Below, piece after piece: positions 3,022-23,694 of a stretch of DNA of 64,000 nucleotides. The DNA is from Deltaproteobacteria bacterium. Its GTDB lineage: Bacteria; Desulfobacterota; Binatia; JACPRU01. Numbering within the stretch: the stretch's first letter is position 1; every line of letters starts with the position of its first letter. The position numbers and the translations under genes are program-made. The DNA is taken from positions 1-64,000 of the forward strand of contig JACPRU010000018.1 of the NCBI GenBank assembly GCA_016189835.1. The letters are read 5' to 3'. The notes under the pieces were generated by a model that searched no databases, had not been told where the DNA came from, and was given only the letters and a program-made list of their open reading frames with translations.

Positions 3022-3659
3022 ATTACGAAGGCGCGCGGCAGAAGATGCTCGAGTCGCAGATCCGCGCCCGCAACGTGCGCGATCCGCGGGTGCTCGAGGC
3101 GATTCGCCGCGTGCCGCGCCACCTGTTCGTCGAAGAGGCGCTGCGCGACCGCGCCTACCTCGACAAAGCGCTGCCGATCGGCGAGAAGCAGACGATCTCC
3201 CAGCCGTACATGGTGGCGGCGATGAGCGAGGCGCTCAAGCTGCGCGGCCGAGAGCGCGTGCTCGAGATCGGCACCGGCTCGGGCTACCAGACGGCGGTGC
3301 TCGCCGAGCTCGCCGAGAGCGTGTTCTCGATCGAGCGCATCGCCGCGTTCGTCCCGGTGGCGCGCCGGCGGCTGGAATCGCTCGGCTACTACAACGTGCT
3401 CATCAAGGTCGGCGACGGTACGATCGGCTGGAGCGAGCACGCGCCCTACGACGCGATCCTCGTCACGGCGGCGGCGCCGCACGTTCCGCGCCCGCTGCTC
3501 GAGCAGCTCCAGGTCGGCGGGCTCCTGGTGGCTCCGATCGGCGGCGAGGAGACGCAGTCGCTGCTGCGCATCCGCAGGGACGAGGACGGCTTCCACGAAG
3601 AGGATCTCGGCGAATGTCGCTTCGTGAAGCTGATCGGCCGGCATGGCTGGGAGCAGTGA
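3012..3659 (+). CDS. pcm: Protein-L-isoaspartate O-methyltransferase
   Basis: This 215-residue Pcm uses S-adenosylmethionine to methylate isoaspartyl residues in damaged proteins so that they can be repaired. Visible motifs are the substrate-side TISQPYMVAAM and the SAM motif VLEIGTGSGYQTAVLAEL. The start is the ATG at 3012 inside the end of surE, with GGAG 5 bases upstream. Its last 17 bases overlap nlpD, so the three genes are probably translationally coupled. Confidence 0.97.
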   Translation: MAVNYEGARQKMLESQIRARNVRDPRVLEAIRRVPRHLFVEEALRDRAYLDKALPIGEKQTISQPYMVAAMSEALKLRGRERVLEIGTGSGYQTAVLAELAESVFSIERIAAFVPVARRRLESLGYYNVLIKVGDGTIGWSEHAPYDAILVTAAAPHVPRPLLEQLQVGGLLVAPIGGEETQSLLRIRRDEDGFHEEDLGECRFVKLIGRHGWEQ

Positions 3660-4389
3660 GGGGGTCTCCCGCGCCATCGCCCGCGGCCTTCGAGCCGGTG
3701 TCGCTCTGTCGCTTGCGCTGAGCGTCGCCGCATGCGCCACCCGCACCGCCGCGCGCGGGCGCGGCATCTACCACGTGGTCGGGCGAGGCGAGAACCTCTT
3801 CCGCATCGGCAAGACGTACAGCGTCGACTATCGCGATCTGGCGCGCCGCAACGGCATCGCCGACCCGGCGCGGATCGAGGCCGGGCGGCGCATCTTCATC
3901 CCCGGCGCCACGCGCCGGCTGCCGGTGGAGATCATCGCGCCGCTGTCGGCCTCGGAGCGCGCTCCGGACCCGCGCGAGTGGCCCGCCGGCGCCGCCCCGT
4001 TCCGCTGGCCGACGCAGCTCGGCACGCTGACGTCCCGATTCGGGCCCCGCAACGGCACGTTCCACGACGGCATCGACATCGCCGCGCCCGAGGGCACGCC
4101 GGTGTACGCGGCGCGCGACGGGCGCGTCATTTACAGCGACCAGATCCCTGGATATGGAAACATCGTGATCGTCGAGCACGACGGCGGTTTGTCGACCGTC
4201 TACGCCCACAACGAGCGCAACGAGGTGTCTTCCGGTGACGTCGTCCGTCAGGGCGAAGAGCTGTCTCGAGTGGGCCGCACCGGGCGGACGACCGGTCCCA
4301 ACCTGCATTTCGAGATCCGCAGCCGCAACGTCGCTCGCAACCCGCTCTTCTACTTGCCCCGGCGGAGCGGCGCGGAGGACGGCTCTTGA
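3643..4389 (+). CDS. nlpD: NlpD-type LysM/M23 lipoprotein, probably an amidase activator
   Basis: 248 residues. A lipoprotein signal ends at the lipobox cysteine C31. A LysM peptidoglycan-binding domain lies at about 42-88 (YHVVGRGENLFRIGKTYSVD). An M23/LytM domain lies at about 120-228. The zinc ligands H141 and D145 and the final H222 are present. The catalytic HxH pair is NLH (N220-L-H222), so the first histidine is lost. Degenerate LytM proteins such as E. coli NlpD and EnvC do not cut murein but activate amidases during division, and I infer that role here. rpoS, which often follows nlpD, is absent; apt follows instead. Confidence 0.9.
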   Translation: MAGSSEGVSRAIARGLRAGVALSLALSVAACATRTAARGRGIYHVVGRGENLFRIGKTYSVDYRDLARRNGIADPARIEAGRRIFIPGATRRLPVEIIAPLSASERAPDPREWPAGAAPFRWPTQLGTLTSRFGPRNGTFHDGIDIAAPEGTPVYAARDGRVIYSDQIPGYGNIVIVEHDGGLSTVYAHNERNEVSSGDVVRQGEELSRVGRTGRTTGPNLHFEIRSRNVARNPLFYLPRRSGAEDGS

Positions 4390-4904
4390 GAGACCTGAAG
4401 GCGTTCATCCGCGACATCCCCGATTTCCCCAAGTCGGGGATCCTGTTTCGCGACCTGACTCCGCTGCTGCTCGACGCGACCGCGTTCCGCGAGACCGTCG
4501 AGCTGATCTGCGACCCGTTCCTCCAGCGCGTCGACGTCGTCGTCGGCATCGAATCACGCGGCTTCATCGTCGGGGCCGCGGTGGCGTATCACCTCGGCAC
4601 CGGGCTGGCGCTGGTGCGCAAGCCCGGCAAGCTGCCGGCCGCCACCTTCGAGGCGCGTTACGACCTGGAGTACGGCACCGACGGGCTGCAGATCCACCAG
4701 GACGCGTTTCGCCACGGCAGCCGCGTGCTGATCGTCGACGACCTGCTGGCCACCGGCGGTACGGCGGCGGCGACCATCGAGCTCACGCGGCGCAGCGGCG
4801 GCGAGGTGGTCGCCTGCGCGTTCGTCATCGAGCTCGACGCGCTCGGCGGCCGCGAGCGCCTGGCCCCGACCGAGGTTCATTCGCTGATCCGCTACGGCGG
4901 GTAA
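4386..4904 (+). CDS. apt: Adenine phosphoribosyltransferase
   Basis: This 172-residue Apt salvages adenine to AMP using PRPP. The PRPP-binding loop is [13 protein letters not shown], and the N-terminus [21 protein letters not shown] is typical of the family. Its TTG start (4386) overlaps the nlpD stop as TTGA, implying translational coupling. fumC follows after 10 bases. The length is normal for the family. Confidence 0.97.
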
Positions 4905-4914
4905 GGAGCTTCTC

Positions 4915-6309
4915 ATGAGCGGATTCCGCACCGAGCGCGACAGCATGGGGGAGATGCAGGTCCCCGCCGACGCCTACTACGCGGCGCAGACCGCCCGCGC
5001 CGTGGAGAACTTCCCGATCTCCAAGCTGCGCTTCGGACGCCCGTTCCTGCGTGCGCTGGCGCTGATCAAGCTCTGCGCCGCCAAGGCCAACGGCGAGCTC
5101 GGCCTGCTCGCGCCGCCCAAGGTTCCGGCGATCCTGCAAGCCGCCGGCGAAGTGGCCGACGGCAAGTTCGATCGGGAGTTCGTCGTCGACGTCTTCCAGA
5201 CCGGCTCCGGCACCTCCACGAACATGAACATGAACGAGGTGATCGCCACCCGCGCGATCGAGATCCTCGGCGGCAAGCGCGGCGACAAGTCCGTGCATCC
5301 GAACGACGACGTCAACATGGGTCAGTCGACCAACGACGTGTTTCCCACGGCGATCCACGTCGCCGCCCTCGAAGCGGTGGAGCGGCGGCTCCTGCCGGCG
5401 CTCGGCGCGCTCGCCGAGGCCTTCGAGGCGAAAGCCGCCGAGTTCGCCGAGGTGGTGAAGTCGGGCCGCACCCACCTGCAGGATGCGGTGCCGGTGACGC
5501 TCGGCCAGGAGTTCTCCGGCTACGCGAGCGTCATCCGCCACGGCATCCGCCGGGTCGAGAGCTGCCGGCGGCATCTCGCCGAGCTGCCGCTCGGCGGCAC
5601 CGCGCTCGGCACGGGCATCAACGCCGACCCGCGCTTCGCGCCCCGCGCGATCGAGGAGCTGAACCGTCTGACGGGCCTCGAGTTTCGTCGCGCCGAGAAC
5701 GCCTTCGAGGCGATGCAGAACCGCGACGCGGCGGTCGAGCTCTCGGGCGCACTGCGCACCGTCGCCGTCGGTCTGATGAAGATCGCCAACGACCTGCGCC
5801 TGCTGACCTCGGGCTCGCGCACGGGCCTGAACGAGATCGAGCTGCCGGCGACGCAGCCCGGCTCGAGCATCATGCCGGGCAAGGTCAACCCGGTGATCCC
5901 CGAGGCGGTCAACATGGTGGCCGCGCAGATCATCGGCTACGATGCGGCGATCGCCGTGGCGGCGATGAACGGCAACCTCGACCTCAACGTCATGATGCCG
6001 GTGATCGCCCACGATCTGCTCGAATCGATCGAGCTCGCGGCGTCGGGGTCGAGCGTGTTCGCGGACAAGTGCGTGCGCGGCATCAAGGCCAACGCCGAGC
6101 GCTGCCGCGAGTACGCCGAGCTCACCGGCCAGCTCGTCACCGCCGTGGCGCCGGTGATCGGCTACGACAAGGCGGCCGCCGTGTACAAGCAGGCGGTGGC
6201 CCGCAACACGTCGATCCGCCAGATCATCCTCGAGGAGAAGCTGCTGCCGCCGGAGCAGCTCGACGAGATCCTCGACCTGAGGAAGCTGACCCGAGGGGGG
6301 CGGGCGTAA
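4915..6309 (+). CDS. fumC: Fumarate hydratase, class II
   Basis: This 464-residue FumC catalyses reversible hydration of fumarate to malate in the TCA cycle without an Fe-S cluster. It has the fumarase/aspartase signature [12 protein letters not shown] and the upstream [18 protein letters not shown] and [13 protein letters not shown] blocks. The length matches class II enzymes (about 460). It lies just downstream of apt. The end is followed by 65 bases before the next gene. Confidence 0.97.
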
Positions 6310-17382: not shown

Positions 17383-17912
17383 CGGGGACGGGCTTCGAAC
17401 GAACGGTCAGAGTGCTCGGCATCGATCCGGGCACCGCGGTGACGGGCTGGGGAGTGGTGGAGACCGCCGGGACAGGATTCCGCTGCGTGGCGAGCGGCAC
17501 GCTCCACCTCTCCTCGCGGCGGCCGCTCGCCGGGCGCCTGCAGCAGATCCGCACCGTCGTGGCCGCGTTGCTCGACGAGCACGACCCCGCGGCGCTGGCG
17601 CTGGAAAAGGCGTTCGTCGCCCACAACGTACAGAGCGCCTTTCGCCTCGGCGAGGCGCGAGGCGCCGTGCTGATCGCGGCCGCGGAGGCCGGCGTCTCGG
17701 TGTTCGAGTACGCCCCGGCGGCGGTGAAGCTCGCGGTGGTGGGGTACGGTCGAGCCGACAAGCGACAGATGGTGCGCGGGGTGGCGCTGCGCCTGGGAGC
17801 CCCGGCGGCCGAGCGTGCCGACGAGGCGGACGCGCTGGCGCTGGCGCTCTGCCACCTGATCGGGGCGCGCTGGCGTGGGCTGGCGGGATCGCGCCGCGAG
17901 GTTGCGCCGTGA
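17379..17912 (+). CDS. ruvC: Holliday junction endonuclease RuvC
   Basis: This 177-residue RuvC resolves Holliday junctions made by recombination. Acidic active-site residues sit in [14 protein letters not shown] (first Asp), [11 protein letters not shown] (Glu) and [15 protein letters not shown] (the two Asp). The start is GTG 17379, overlapping the yebC stop. A second GTG at 17412 gives a start closer to the usual MLGIDPG. It overlaps ruvA by GTGA. Confidence 0.95.
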
Positions 17913-18499
17913 TCGCTCGCTTGCGGGGCTGGCTTCGCGAGCGCACGCCGGAGGAGGTGGTGATCGACGTCGGCGGCGTCGGCTACCAGCTGTTCGTGTC
18001 GGCGCAGACGCTGGCCGCGCTGCCGGCGGAGGGCGAGGAGGTGGAGCTGCTGACCGTCACGCATCTGCGCGAGGACGCGCTGCAGCTCTTCGGCTTCGCG
18101 GAAGCGGCCGAGCGGATGCTCTTCCAGATGCTGCAATCGGTGTCGGGCATCGGCCCCCGCCTGGCGCTCGGCATCCTGTCGGGCATGCCGGTGGAGGAGC
18201 TTCGCGAGGCGATCCGCCGCCGCGATCTGGTGCGCCTGACGCGCATCCCGGGGGTCGGCAAGAAGATCGCCGAGCGCCTCTCGCTCGAGCTCGCGGACAA
18301 GTTGCTCGCGCTGCCCGCCGAGCGCGCCCCGCGGCGCGACGCCGCGCTCGGCGACGTCGGCACGCGCGCGGTGTCGGCGCTGATCAATCTCCAGTTCCGC
18401 CCCGCCGAGGCCGAGCGAGCCGTGGAAGGGGCGCTCGCCGCCGGGTTCACCACCCTGGAAGAGGTGGTGCGCGAGGCGCTGAGGAGCACGCGGCGGTGA
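17909..18499 (+). CDS. ruvA: Holliday junction DNA helicase subunit RuvA
   Basis: This 196-residue RuvA holds the four-way junction for RuvB. The OB-fold domain is at 1-63 ([20 protein letters not shown] with [10 protein letters not shown]), the helix-hairpin-helix repeats are at about 70-140 ([30 protein letters not shown]), and domain III is at the C-terminus. The start GTG 17909 overlaps the ruvC stop. Confidence 0.97.
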
Positions 18500-19524
18500 G
18501 GCGCGAGCGCTCCGGGACGCTCGGACCGATCGGCGGCGACGACGATCGCTTCGCCGATCAATCGCTTCGGCCGCAGAGCTTCGCCGACTACGTCGGGCAG
18601 GATCGAGTGAAGGAAAACCTCCAGCTCATGGTGACCGCCGCCCGGGCGCGCGGCGAAGCCCTCGACCACCTGCTGTTCCACGGTCCGCCGGGACTGGGAA
18701 AGACCTCGCTCGCGCACCTCGTCGCGCGCGAGATGGGCGTGAACATCCGGACCACCTCCGGGCCGATGATCGAGCGCGCCGGCGACCTGGCGGCGATCCT
18801 CACCAACCTCGAGCCGCGCGACGTGCTGTTCATCGACGAGGTCCATCGGCTGAACCGCGTGATCGAGGAGGTGCTCTATCCGGCGATGGAGGACTTCAAG
18901 CTCGACCTGGTGATCGGCCACGGCCCGGGAGCGAGCATGTCCAAGATTCCGCTCCAGCCCTTCACGCTGATCGCCGCCACCACGCGGTCGGGGCTGCTCG
19001 GAGCGCCGCTGCGCAACCGCTTCGGCAACGACTTCCGCCTGGAGTTCTACACGCACGCCGAGCTGGAGACGATCGTCGCCCGCTCCGCGCGCATCCTCTC
19101 GGTGCGCCTCGAGGCGGACGGCGCCGCCGAGATCGCCCGGCGCTCGCGGGGAACGCCGCGCATCGCCAACCGGCTGCTGCGCCGGGTGCGGGATTTCGCC
19201 GAGGTGCGCGCCGACGGGATCATTCGCCGCCAGGTGGCGCGCGACGCGCTGCGGCTTCTCGACATCGACGAGATCGGGCTCGAGCCGATGGACCGCGTGC
19301 TGCTCTCGACGATCGTCGACAAGTTCGACGGCGGACCGGTCGGCATCGACAACCTGGCGGCGTCGATCGGCGAAGAGCGCGACACCCTCGAGGACGTCTA
19401 CGAGCCGTATCTCCTGCAGATCGGCTTCCTGCAGCGCACCCCGAAGGGTCGAGTTGCAACCTCGAGCGCCTGGCGGCATCTTGGCAAGGAGCCGAGCAAG
19501 GGACCGCAGGGAGGCCTGTTCTAG
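18496..19524 (+). CDS. ruvB: Holliday junction DNA helicase ATPase RuvB
   Basis: This 342-residue RuvB is the AAA+ motor that drives branch migration with RuvA. The Walker A motif is [11 protein letters not shown], Walker B is [10 protein letters not shown], and sensor 1 lies in LIAATTRSG. The C-terminal winged helix ends in the conserved [17 protein letters not shown] 18496 overlaps the ruvA stop by GTGA, making the third such junction in a row. Confidence 0.98.
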
Positions 19525-19789: not shown

Positions 19790-22015
19790 GTGAGCGTTCA
19801 TCTCGAGGAGCCGGGCGCGATCGAGACGGAGCCGGCCGGCGTCGAGGGACGCCTCAACCGCCGCGACGCTTGGCTGATCGCGCTGGTCGCCCTCGGCGTC
19901 TTCCTGTTCGCCGTGTTCGAAGCGCGGCTGCCCCAGTTCTCGAGCGCGCAGTCGCTGATGAACCACCTGACGTTCTTCCTGCTGATCAACCTGAACGTGC
20001 TGCTGCTCGTGGTGTTCGTGTTCCTGGTCGGGCGCAACCTCGTCAAGCTGATGCTCGAGCGGCGCCAGCGCATCCCCGGTTCGCATCTGCGCACCCGCCT
20101 GGTGGTCGCGTTCGTCGGCCTGTCGCTCGTGCCCGCCGTGCTGCTGTTCATCGCCTCGACCAACTTCATGGACAACTCGATCGAGAAGTGGTTCGACGAG
20201 CAGGTGGAGCGCTCGCTCGAGGGCTCCCACGAGGTGGTGCAGGCGTTCTACCAGACCACCGCGCAGTCGATGCGGACGCGCGCGCGCGAGATCGCCGCGG
20301 ACGTCGCCGTCCGCGGGTTGATGGCGCCGGAGCGTGGCGCCGAGCTGACGCGGTACGCGGAGGCGCGCCGCGCCGAGGCCGGGCTCGGCGCCGTCGCGGT
20401 GTTCTCGCCGCAACGCGACTTGCGCGCGGTGGCGTTCTCGGCGGCGGCGGGAAGCATCACGGTGGCCCCCGAGGGCGCGGCGTTCCGGGAGCTGCTGGAG
20501 GGCGAGGAGATCACCCGGATCGAGCCGCTCGGCGGCGGCGACATCGTTCGCGGCGCCGCGCCGATCGTGGTCCAGGGGAGCGTGGTGGGCGCGGTGGTGG
20601 TCGATCAGTACGTCCCGGTGAGCCTGGCGCAGCGGTCCGAAGGCATCGAGCGGTCGTTTCGGGAATACCGCGAGCTGAAGATCCTCAAGCAGCCGATCAA
20701 GAACACCTACCTGCTGACGCTCACGCTGATCACGCTCGTCGTCGTGTTCGCCGCCACCTGGTACGGGCTCTCGCTCGCCAAGGGCATCACCGTGCCGATC
20801 CAGCAGCTCGCCGAGGGCACCCGCGAGGTCGCGCACGGCAACTGGGACGTGCGCATCCCGGGGGCGGGCGGCGACGAGATCGGGACGCTGGTTTCGGCCT
20901 TCAACCAGATGACCGGCGACCTGAAGAAGTTCAACGCCGAGCTCGAGGAGCGCCGCCGGCACATGGAGACGGTGCTCGCCAACATCCGGGCCGGAGTGGT
21001 GTCGGTGTCGCCGGCCGGGACGATCACCACCTGGAACGCCGCCGCCGAGCGCCTGCTCGGCATCTCGGCGCGCCAGACCCGCGGGCGGACCGCGTCGGAA
21101 GTGCTGGCCGGGCCGGCGCTGGAGCCGGTCCGCAGCATGCTCGACGAGCTGCTGGCGACCGGGGTGAGCCAGAGCGAGCGCCAGGTCGAGGTCGTGCACT
21201 CGGACGACGCCTTCACGCTGCTCGCCGCCGCCGCTCCGCTGCGGGAGCCCGCCGCGAGCCCGGAAGCGCCGACCGGCGCGGTGCTGTTCTTCGAGGACAT
21301 CACCCAGATCCTCAAGGTGCAGCGCATGGAGGCGTGGCGGGAGGTCGCGCAGCGCATCGCTCACGAGATCAAGAATCCGCTGACGCCGATCCAGCTCTCC
21401 GCGCAGCGGCTGCAGAAGCGCTACGCGCACATCCTGCGCGAGGAAGTCTTCGAGGAATGCACGCGCACCATCGTCAAGCAGGTCGAGGATCTGAAGACGC
21501 TGGTCAACGAGTTCTCGAGCTTCGCGCGACTGCCCACCGGCCACCACCGTCCCGAGGACTTGAACGCTCTGGTCGAGGAGGCGGTCGTGCTGTTCCGCGA
21601 AGGGCATCGCGAGATCCGCTTCGACGTGCGCACCGACCCGGCGGTTCCGGCGCTGCTGCTCGATCGCGAGGGCATCAAGCGGGCGCTGATCAACATGCTC
21701 GACAACGCGGTGGCCGCCTGCGGGAACGGCCGCGGCTCGGCGGCGAAGATCGAGATCACCACCGCGTACCTCGAGTCGCTCGACCTGGTGCGGCTCGAGC
21801 TGGCGGACAACGGCTCGGGGATGACCCCGGAGGTCAAGGCGAGGCTGTTCGAACCGTATTTCTCCACCAAGAAGCACGGCACCGGCCTCGGCCTGGCGAT
21901 CGTCTCGGCGATCTTCTCCGACCACCACGCCTTCATCCGCGTCCGCGACAACGAACCGAAGGGGAGTCGCTTCGTCGTCGAGTTTCCAGTAAGGGGGGAG
22001 GCCGCGAATGCCTGA
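19790..22015 (+). CDS. NtrY-type membrane sensor histidine kinase
   Basis: 741 residues from GTG 19790. Three N-terminal membrane segments (about 27-43, 60-80, 104-122) precede a periplasmic sensor (about 123-305). A fourth membrane segment (306-330), HAMP (331-385) and a PAS domain (390-510) follow. The dimerisation box is RIAHEIKNPLTPIQLSAQR with phosphorylated H525. The ATPase has N635 (LINMLDNA), D673 (DNGSGM) and GTGLGLAI. The HEIKNPLTPIQLSA box is typical of NtrY. Its last 8 bases overlap the next gene, a receiver-LpxC fusion, instead of ntrX. The signal is unknown. Confidence 0.93.
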   Translation: MSVHLEEPGAIETEPAGVEGRLNRRDAWLIALVALGVFLFAVFEARLPQFSSAQSLMNHLTFFLLINLNVLLLVVFVFLVGRNLVKLMLERRQRIPGSHLRTRLVVAFVGLSLVPAVLLFIASTNFMDNSIEKWFDEQVERSLEGSHEVVQAFYQTTAQSMRTRAREIAADVAVRGLMAPERGAELTRYAEARRAEAGLGAVAVFSPQRDLRAVAFSAAAGSITVAPEGAAFRELLEGEEITRIEPLGGGDIVRGAAPIVVQGSVVGAVVVDQYVPVSLAQRSEGIERSFREYRELKILKQPIKNTYLLTLTLITLVVVFAATWYGLSLAKGITVPIQQLAEGTREVAHGNWDVRIPGAGGDEIGTLVSAFNQMTGDLKKFNAELEERRRHMETVLANIRAGVVSVSPAGTITTWNAAAERLLGISARQTRGRTASEVLAGPALEPVRSMLDELLATGVSQSERQVEVVHSDDAFTLLAAAAPLREPAASPEAPTGAVLFFEDITQILKVQRMEAWREVAQRIAHEIKNPLTPIQLSAQRLQKRYAHILREEVFEECTRTIVKQVEDLKTLVNEFSSFARLPTGHHRPEDLNALVEEAVVLFREGHREIRFDVRTDPAVPALLLDREGIKRALINMLDNAVAACGNGRGSAAKIEITTAYLESLDLVRLELADNGSGMTPEVKARLFEPYFSTKKHGTGLGLAIVSAIFSDHHAFIRVRDNEPKGSRFVVEFPVRGEAANA

Positions 22016-23282
22016 GACGATCCTCATCGTCGACGACGAGGCGCAGATCCGCGCGGCCGTGAGCGGAGTGCTCGCCGACGAAGGGTTCCGCGTGGTGCAA
22101 GCCGACAACGGCCGCAGCGCGCTGGCGACGATCGCCGCGGAGCACCCGTGCCTGGTGCTGCTCGACATCTGGATGCCGGAGATCGACGGGATCGAGCTGC
22201 TCCGCCAGATCCAGGAGCGCCACCCGGGGACTCGGGTCATCGCCATCTCCGGTCACGGCAACATCGAGACGGCGGTGCGCGCCACGCAGCTGGGGGCGGT
22301 GGATTTCATCGAGAAGCCGTTTTCGCTCGACGGGCTGCTGCAGCGGGTGGAACGGGCGCTCGGCGCCCCGGCCGCTGCCGACGATGCCCGCGAGCGGGCG
22401 CCGCGCGTTGCCCCGCGTCGTCCCGCGGCTTCCTCGGCGAACGGCCGCACGCGGCCGGCGCGCACGCTCTCGCGCAGCGTCGTGATCAACGGGCACGGCC
22501 TCCATTCCGGCGTTCGCACCGGTTTGATCCTGCGACCGGCTCCGCCGGGGACCGGGGTCGTCTTCGAGAGCATCTCGACGGAGGTGGAGATCCCCGCGCT
22601 GGTCGACTACGTCACCTCGACCGGCTACGCGACGACCCTGTTCCGCGACGGCACCGCGGCCAAGACGGTCGAGCATCTGCTCGCCGCGCTGCACGCCTTC
22701 GGCGTCACCAACCTGCGCGTGAAGATGCAGGGCGAGATCCCGATTCTCGACGGCTCCGCGCTGGGGTTCTGCGATCTGGTGCGGTCGGGCGGCATCGAGA
22801 CCCAGGACGAGGAGATCGTCGAAGAGATCGTCGTCGAGCGCCGCTTCTCGATCGGTGACCCGACGCACGGCAAGTACATCGCCCTCGAGCCGGCCGACGC
22901 TTTCGAGATCGACTACACGCTGGACTACCCGCATCCGGTCGGCCGCGAGCACGTCGTCTACCGTCACGACGGCCCGGACCGGTTTCGCGCCGAGATCGCG
23001 CCGGCGCGCACGTTCGGCTTCCTCAAGGACGTCGACGCGCTCGAGCAGATGGGGCTCGCCGACGGCGGCCGCTTGCACAACTGCATCCTGGTCGGCGACG
23101 ACGGGGTGATCAACACCAAGCTGCGACTCGAATGCGAGTTCGCCCGGCATAAGATCCTCGACATCATGGGGGACTTCTTTCTGCTCGGTCGGCCGATCCG
23201 CGGACGCATCGTCGCTCGCATGACCGGACACGGCGACAACATCGCGCTGCTGAAGCAGGTGCACCGGGCCGTGGATCTCTGA
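22008..23282 (+). CDS. Response-regulator receiver fused to LpxC deacetylase
   Basis: 424 residues. Residues 1-118 are a complete receiver: acidic pocket D9/D10, phospho-acceptor D53 (LLDIWMP), S81 (ISGHG) and K103 (IEKPF); IEKPFSLDGLLQRVERAL is NtrX-like. Residues 119-152 form an Ala/Arg/Pro linker. Residues 153-424 are full LpxC, which removes acetate from UDP-3-O-acyl-GlcNAc in the committed lipid A step. Zinc ligands H223, H381 and D385, catalytic E222 and H408 (MTGHGDN) are intact. The ATG at 22008 has a GGGGGGAGG Shine-Dalgarno inside the kinase gene end. NtrX's AAA+ and HTH parts are absent. The frame is continuous with no start or stop at the junction. Confidence 0.95.
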   Translation: MPETILIVDDEAQIRAAVSGVLADEGFRVVQADNGRSALATIAAEHPCLVLLDIWMPEIDGIELLRQIQERHPGTRVIAISGHGNIETAVRATQLGAVDFIEKPFSLDGLLQRVERALGAPAAADDARERAPRVAPRRPAASSANGRTRPARTLSRSVVINGHGLHSGVRTGLILRPAPPGTGVVFESISTEVEIPALVDYVTSTGYATTLFRDGTAAKTVEHLLAALHAFGVTNLRVKMQGEIPILDGSALGFCDLVRSGGIETQDEEIVEEIVVERRFSIGDPTHGKYIALEPADAFEIDYTLDYPHPVGREHVVYRHDGPDRFRAEIAPARTFGFLKDVDALEQMGLADGGRLHNCILVGDDGVINTKLRLECEFARHKILDIMGDFFLLGRPIRGRIVARMTGHGDNIALLKQVHRAVDL

Positions 23283-23308: not shown

Positions 23309-23336
23309 TTGTGCGCGTGGGGCGCGATGGTACAGT
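23309..23336 (+). promoter_or_regulatory. Candidate sigma-70 promoter for the PilZ gene
   Basis: TTGTGC (23309-23314), a 16-base spacer and TACAGT (23331-23336) lie 47 bases before the PilZ ATG. Both boxes are near consensus in GC-rich surroundings. Confidence 0.4.
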
Positions 23337-23382
23337 AAGGTTTCACCGCAGAATTCGCAGCCTCTCCGGGGGCCGAGAAGTG

Positions 23383-23694
23383 ATGAGCGAGGCAACGGAA
23401 CGGCGAGGAGCCGAACGGCGAGCCACAGACCGGGGCGGATCGGTCTCGTTCGGCCAGGAGGTCCTCGCGTGCCGGATCGTCGATCTCTCGGAGACCGGGG
23501 CACAGGTGCGCATCGACGGCAAGCGAGCGAGCCGCAACCTGGTCGGCAAGCGCGCCTCGTTGACGCTCGAGGGTCCGAAGCCGCGCGTGCTCGCCGGTCG
23601 CGTGGCGTGGGCGCGCCCGGCGGTGAACGGCGTCTATCTCGGCCTCGCCATCGACGAGGGCGACGCCAAGCCGCTGCAGGGCGCTCCGCAGTGA
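23383..23694 (+). CDS. PilZ-domain (c-di-GMP-binding) protein
   Basis: 103 residues from ATG 23383. The PilZ signature is seen as an arginine-rich N-terminus (ERRGAERRATDR, RxxxR-like) and DLSETGAQV (D/NxSxxG) about 25 residues later. Single-domain PilZ proteins bind cyclic di-GMP and regulate surface traits or secretion. It stands between the receiver-LpxC fusion and the convergent gspN. The frame is open upstream, but homology starts at this ATG. Confidence 0.85.
   Translation: MSEATERRGAERRATDRGGSVSFGQEVLACRIVDLSETGAQVRIDGKRASRNLVGKRASLTLEGPKPRVLAGRVAWARPAVNGVYLGLAIDEGDAKPLQGAPQ

Follow-up and report, generated by a model that had tools for sequence, protein, structure and literature searches.

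What does a lipid A enzyme do when it is joined to a response-regulator receiver and encoded in the place where the partner of a sensor kinase would be expected? The question is raised by a contig of an uncultured deltaproteobacterium, of which a stretch of 64,000 nucleotides (hereafter the window) was analysed, and in which a gene for an NtrY-type kinase runs directly into a single frame encoding both a receiver and the deacetylase LpxC, the enzyme with which a cell commits itself to lipid A.

The fusion gene and its surroundings

The fusion gene occupies positions 22008-23282 of the forward strand and is one open frame of 424 aa, identified by Pfam and by its relatives throughout the class. 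Its first 118 residues (22008-22361) form an NtrX-type receiver domain, assigned from its Response_reg match (Pfam, residues 5-115, E 1.6e-32), its nearest structures and its place in a receiver tree, and carrying the quintet D9, D10, D53, S81 and K103; the codon for D53, the putative phospho-acceptor, lies at 22164-22166. A linker (residues 119-151, 22362-22460) leads to the LpxC catalytic domain (residues 152-418, 22461-23261), which matches PF03331 (E 5.9e-78, 262.5 bits against a cut-off of 27) as well as the NCBIfam model TIGR00325 (lpxC; E 3.6e-68, 230.1 bits, above the cut-off of 187.25), and which has the full zinc and catalytic set of E222, H223, H381, K382, D385, D389 and H408. The original prediction had described an intact receiver at residues 1-118 (D9/D10, D53, S81, K103) and an intact LpxC at residues 153-424 (E222, H223, H381, D385, H408), and the residues are as described there. 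Judged by its profile matches and active-site residues, the window protein is by sequence a genuine LpxC as well as a genuine receiver; with receiver and enzyme domain in one polypeptide it has the layout of a response regulator with enzymatic output. Because the linker of the window gene holds no in-frame ATG, GTG or TTG, free LpxC made by internal initiation is not expected from it. Start codons do occur in the linkers of other members of the fusion family.

Directly upstream, at 19790-22015 (forward strand), lies the gene for a membrane sensor histidine kinase of NtrY type (741 aa; Pfam NtrY_N, HAMP, PAS, HisKA with H525, and HATPase_c) with several hydrophobic segments, the reading frame of which overlaps that of the fusion by 8 bases (22008-22015), as had been claimed at the outset. 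It is the sole NtrY-level ortholog in its genome, scoring 1603 bits against about 91 for the next kinase. As context only, a RuvB frame (17875-19524, forward strand) sits directly 5′ of ntrY in the order yebC-ruvC-ruvA-ruvB-ntrY-fusion, and a gene for a small PilZ-domain protein (23311-23694, forward strand; PF07238, 3.8e-9), for which we claim no membership in the module, follows on the 3′ side, with opposite-strand type II secretion genes beyond it. RuvB was also read next to NtrY at two other loci, L242 and L250.

The source genome, a draft MAG of 2.6 Mb, is complete to about 75%, and within that coverage no second LpxC was found. A distant LpxL/HtrB-type acyltransferase is present (C50:3574-4503, 143.7 bits, below the cut-off), and LpxK and KdtA were not found in the roughly half of the genome that was searched.

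Distribution in the class and across the phylum

A search for receiver-LpxC architectures, which the original prediction had proposed as a check, was run on class and phylum genomes and returned a full-length match, receiver and LpxC together, in 133 of the 148 genomes of the window's class; seven others gave partial matches and eight gave none. We read the partial matches as truncated at contig ends, four of the seven beginning no more than 25 bases from a contig start. Outside the class, about 68 of 297 genomes sampled from the phylum have a match over the full length or else a long frame that contains LpxC. Among those opened, the proteins are of three kinds: receiver-LpxC of about 410-465 aa; a longer form of about 700-776 aa in which a receiver, a sigma-54-type AAA+ domain, a Fis-like segment and LpxC follow one another (families f8, f10, f40, f54, f60 and f78); and a divergent receiver-LpxC in Nitrospirota and in family f39, where a stand-alone LpxC is also present in several genomes. 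One long form, in genome G104, has a stop that splits the receiver from the AAA+ domain.

With the same junction open in 133 of the 148 class genomes, and open again in numerous families elsewhere in the phylum, chance and assembly error are excluded as its source, and so is a restriction of the fusion to one organism. Two of the findings that had been named in advance as fatal to the idea did not turn up. A stop hidden at the junction, with a separate lpxC start behind it, is rejected because the junction is open in all those class genomes, some of them single-contig, and because the window linker is startless. A separate stand-alone LpxC doing the main job is rejected as well, since none was found in the window's own genome, itself about 75% complete, and there is only one case in the class: LpxC is single-copy in all but one of 140 class genomes, the exception (G420) carrying an extra stand-alone copy on a 3.1-kb contig that is likely to be contamination, as in the LpxC tree this copy clusters with one from a genome of Nitrospinota. 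On this distribution of sequences, the fusion is an ancient, class-wide trait of uncultured bacteria and not a one-off.

Probable descent from NtrX and the retention of NtrY

In a tree of LpxC, one branch parts all fused copies from all stand-alone ones (SH-aLRT 100; bootstrap/SH-aLRT of 100/100 in a second tree). Eleven columns set the fused clade apart, one of them by a change from E/D to K at residue 239, and they are candidates for contact with the receiver; residues 159, 171, 172, 174, 229 and 255 are clade-specific as well. The fusion shares its fold and full catalytic set with canonical LpxC (PF03331, TIGR00325) but differs in its N-terminal receiver, its separate clade and its short tail. 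In E. coli LpxC about 40 residues follow the last catalytic His and form a degron tail, whereas the window protein has 16 residues beyond H408, its final catalytic His, and so lacks a C-terminal degron tail of the E. coli type.

The receivers of the fusions group with those of NtrX and apart from NtrC-like ones (SH-aLRT 97), and the solved structures closest to the window receiver include 4d6x and 5m7n, which we take to be NtrX entries, ahead of NtrC receivers. A docking helix (L-x-D-E-G) and a G-H-G after S81 are common to fusions and NtrX and are not found in the NtrC-like set, and a single receiver column distinguishes the fusions from NtrX. The NtrX model NF051870 is the top response-regulator match of the window protein, at 135 bits, where the equivalog cut-off stands at 600. 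The likeness to NtrX extends to adjacency with ntrY and stops at the output: Pfam finds neither the sigma-54-type AAA+ core nor the Fis-type HTH of NtrX in the window protein, which is therefore not an NtrX, and the short fusions have LpxC in their stead.

What may have happened to these missing parts is suggested by the long fusions, in which Walker A and a WPGN segment are kept while GAFTGA, the Walker B acidic pair and the arginine fingers are lost; their Sigma54_activat match is weak (80-89 bits, where a true NtrX scores 254), and HTH_8 gives no match in Pfam. Since GAFTGA is also missing from alphaproteobacterial NtrX, its loss alone is not special; that of Walker B and the fingers is. 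From their domain order and motifs we regard the long fusions as an intermediate in which all of NtrX, its AAA+ core decayed, is joined to LpxC. It is plausible that the long form is ancestral to the short one. In the tree the long rows nest within the short rows with weak support, and a topology that keeps them together in a single clade is not rejected (p-AU 0.37).

The kinase tells a complementary story. NtrY lies directly 5′ of the fusion in every class family with flanking sequence, the two genes being adjacent, overlapping or closely spaced, and it does so in the long-form families f10, f40 and f78 and the short-form family f57 as well. An NtrY ortholog is kept, far above background kinases, in every genome searched, including those of several families in which ntrY stands apart from the fusion. 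In the nine fusion-only families with the two genes apart, no NtrX was found beside NtrY; as the genes do not adjoin there, the pairing in these families rests on retention. A true-NtrX query scored 487-733 bits in 13 of 13 genomes with stand-alone LpxC and at most 423 bits, the level of generic NtrC kin, in 14 of 14 fusion-only genomes, counts that come from genomes that are not phylogenetically independent; three genomes with both the fusion and a true NtrX (G208, G495 and G285) gave 482, 509 and 1008 bits. Since true NtrX is missing from all 14 fusion-only genomes while NtrY is retained, the fusion replaces NtrX, which bears out the earlier claim that it takes the place of ntrX.

What is probably the ancestral neighbourhood can still be seen in about 14 genomes with stand-alone LpxC, where lpxC lies just 5′ of ntrY, in most instances separated from it by a DUF4390 gene, and where ntrX in most cases, or else kdtA or lpxK, lies beyond ntrY. 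DUF4390 is PlrP, which has been proposed on genetic grounds to be the third component in some NtrYX systems (PMC13001219). As a sensor partner of the fusion it was rejected, since a search of 11 class genomes gave no match.

A receiver as the probable regulatory domain of LpxC

The reading that we prefer, and that is probably correct given the gene order, the trees and the conserved residues, is that LpxC activity is set by the attached NtrX-type receiver under the control of NtrY, in a module that arose once by fusion of NtrX to LpxC. NtrY would sense the state of the envelope at the membrane and would phosphorylate or dephosphorylate the receiver at D53, whose phosphorylation state would shift the packing of receiver against LpxC and so change deacetylase output; lipid A synthesis would then be tuned within the same molecule, without transcription or proteolysis. 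Both the transfer of phosphate from NtrY to D53 and its catalytic effect are steps that we infer from sequence. The original prediction had spoken of a phosphorelay, a term that we amend to two-component phosphotransfer, as no multi-step relay is envisaged. As to the sign of the effect, our guess leans slightly towards a lower LpxC output upon phosphorylation, on the model of Rhodobacter, where NtrYX lowers the expression of lpxC. The module would have a single origin, at a locus where lpxC and ntrYX were already neighbours and the gene for NtrX became fused to lpxC, after which the sigma-54 and DNA-binding part would have been lost. We consider it reasonably likely that NtrX, a transcription factor with an ancestral link to lpxC, became in this way an allosteric regulatory domain of LpxC, and that intermediates of this change survive in the decayed NtrX-LpxC proteins.

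A receiver could also be imagined to control how much LpxC there is, phosphorylation exposing or hiding a surface recognised by a protease in the manner of RssB or CpdR. The 16 residues after H408 are too short for an E. coli-type degron tail, so that a different handle would be needed. That E. coli controls LpxC through its amount, according to one review (PMC12444477), also speaks for this alternative; we nevertheless think it unlikely, because no adaptor or degron was identified and because the predicted packing of the domains suits allostery. AlphaFold2, run on 51 fusions, gave a pLDDT of 90.2 and a pTM of 0.88, with residues 121-139 predicted to be disordered (pLDDT <50) and with P. aeruginosa LpxC as the best structural match of the LpxC half; a pTM of 0.88 where LpxC alone makes up about 63% of the chain suggests that receiver and LpxC pack in a defined arrangement.

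Improbable, in our judgement, is a role of the receiver as a tether, recruiting LpxC to the NtrY of the inner membrane, with phosphorylation switching location only. The hydrophobic segments of NtrY and the NtrX docking face kept on the receiver would fit it, but a mere tether does not need an invariant D53 and K103, nor S/T81. In an alignment of 98 distinct fusions (87 short and 11 long) together with 27 rows of stand-alone LpxC, D9, D10, D53, K103 and P104 never vary where the position is present, the residue at 81 is S, T or C, and E222, H223, H381, K382, D385, D389 and H408 are invariant in fused and stand-alone rows alike. As the fusions span more than 25 families and share no more than 39-60% identity with the window protein, both halves are under strong selection. 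The invariance of D53 reflects, on this alignment, selection on the receiver and does not tell which output the receiver controls; allosteric control of catalysis is what we prefer over control of stability or tethering.

These genomes encode dozens of candidate kinases and receivers, and ntrY and the fusion are separate in several families, so that the receiver might answer another kinase or acetyl phosphate and the adjacent NtrY be incidental. The class-wide gene order, the retention of NtrY where NtrX is lost and the NtrX type of the receiver make this highly improbable. A neutral relic, with a receiver that regulates nothing, is harder still to credit when its phospho-site residues are invariant across so many families at such low identity. 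An assembly or frame artefact masking two genes, which the draft state of the MAG might bring to mind, is as good as refuted by the open junction and the startless linker.

How does the inferred module compare with known systems? CheB, PleD and RpfG are response regulators with enzymatic output that serve signalling; they too have receiver and enzyme in one chain, but the output of the fusion is an essential biosynthetic enzyme. Control of LpxC in E. coli by LapB-FtsH is likewise post-translational, acting through a degron and a protease where the fusion has a receiver domain (PMC12444477). Desulfovibrio vulgaris DVU2934 binds the lpxC promoter (PMC3333781) and is thus also a case of two-component control of lpxC, but by a transcription factor on a stand-alone gene. 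A further parallel is NtrYX acting on lpxC in Rhodobacter and Caulobacter, with the same kinase family and the same enzyme, where the link is transcriptional, and in Rhodobacter thought to be indirect, instead of covalent as here (PMC7240162, PMC12444477). Deletion of ntrYX in R. sphaeroides raised the lpxC transcript 8.8-fold (PMC7240162) and LPS about two-fold (PMC7240162, PMC12444477), an independent precedent for the action of NtrYX on lpxC. A receiver-LpxC fusion is not found by term in LpxC reviews of 2025 and 2026 (PMC12444477, PMC13333357), and, in keeping with the earlier remark that no described example came to mind, no description was found in the open-licence literature, an absence that is not proof.

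Lipid A synthesis is controlled at LpxC, which is also a leading target for antibiotics, and the controls described for it act by proteolysis, through protein partners or on transcription. If the enzyme has a receiver of its own, envelope sensing would be linked to LPS output directly and fast, and by its domains the fusion is a response regulator with an essential biosynthetic enzyme as its output. The series from lpxC beside ntrYX, through NtrX with a decayed AAA+ core joined to LpxC, to receiver-LpxC would trace the conversion of a transcription factor into an enzyme regulator. For the many bacteria in which these genes are separate, it predicts that NtrYX would be an LPS-homeostasis system, which bears on the question of what signal NtrYX senses.

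Other settings of the fused gene

Immediately downstream of the receiver-LpxC gene, on the same strand, the window encodes a small PilZ-domain protein (23311-23694). At L114 in genome G104 (3315-5483, minus strand), a stop splits the long NtrX-LpxC fusion into a 91-aa receiver and a 629-aa AAA+-LpxC piece, which reflects either an assembly error or a real split. The fused LpxC of G285, a family f89 genome (loci L187 and L245), most closely resembles the version found in family f33, and the genome has retained canonical NtrY-NtrX as well; from these sequences, the fusion was likely gained by recent horizontal transfer.

Divergent receiver-LpxC proteins

A divergent receiver-LpxC, with about 40% identity, is encoded in seven Nitrospirota genomes (G442, G452, G461, G485, G490, G495 and G500; Nitrospirota loci L167-L172, L213-L217 and L220) and in two genomes of family f39 (G208 and G252). 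It is accompanied by a stand-alone LpxC in G442, G461, G490, G495, G208 and G252, and both of the genomes tested among those with the two kinds of LpxC (G495 and G208) also encode a true NtrX. To judge by sequence, the fusion appears to have been put to use a second time here, as a paralogue.

LpxC absence and the lpxC-ntrY cluster

No LpxC match was present in several near-complete genomes of genus g73 in family f46 (G076, G109, G138, G165, G190, G235 and G256), and one was present in a sister genus (G040); lipid A synthesis may have been lost at the level of the genus. Across stand-alone-LpxC lineages of the phylum, a conserved cluster (L273-L286) runs lpxC, DUF4390 (PlrP), ntrY and then ntrX, kdtA or lpxK, which ties NtrY to lipid A genes.
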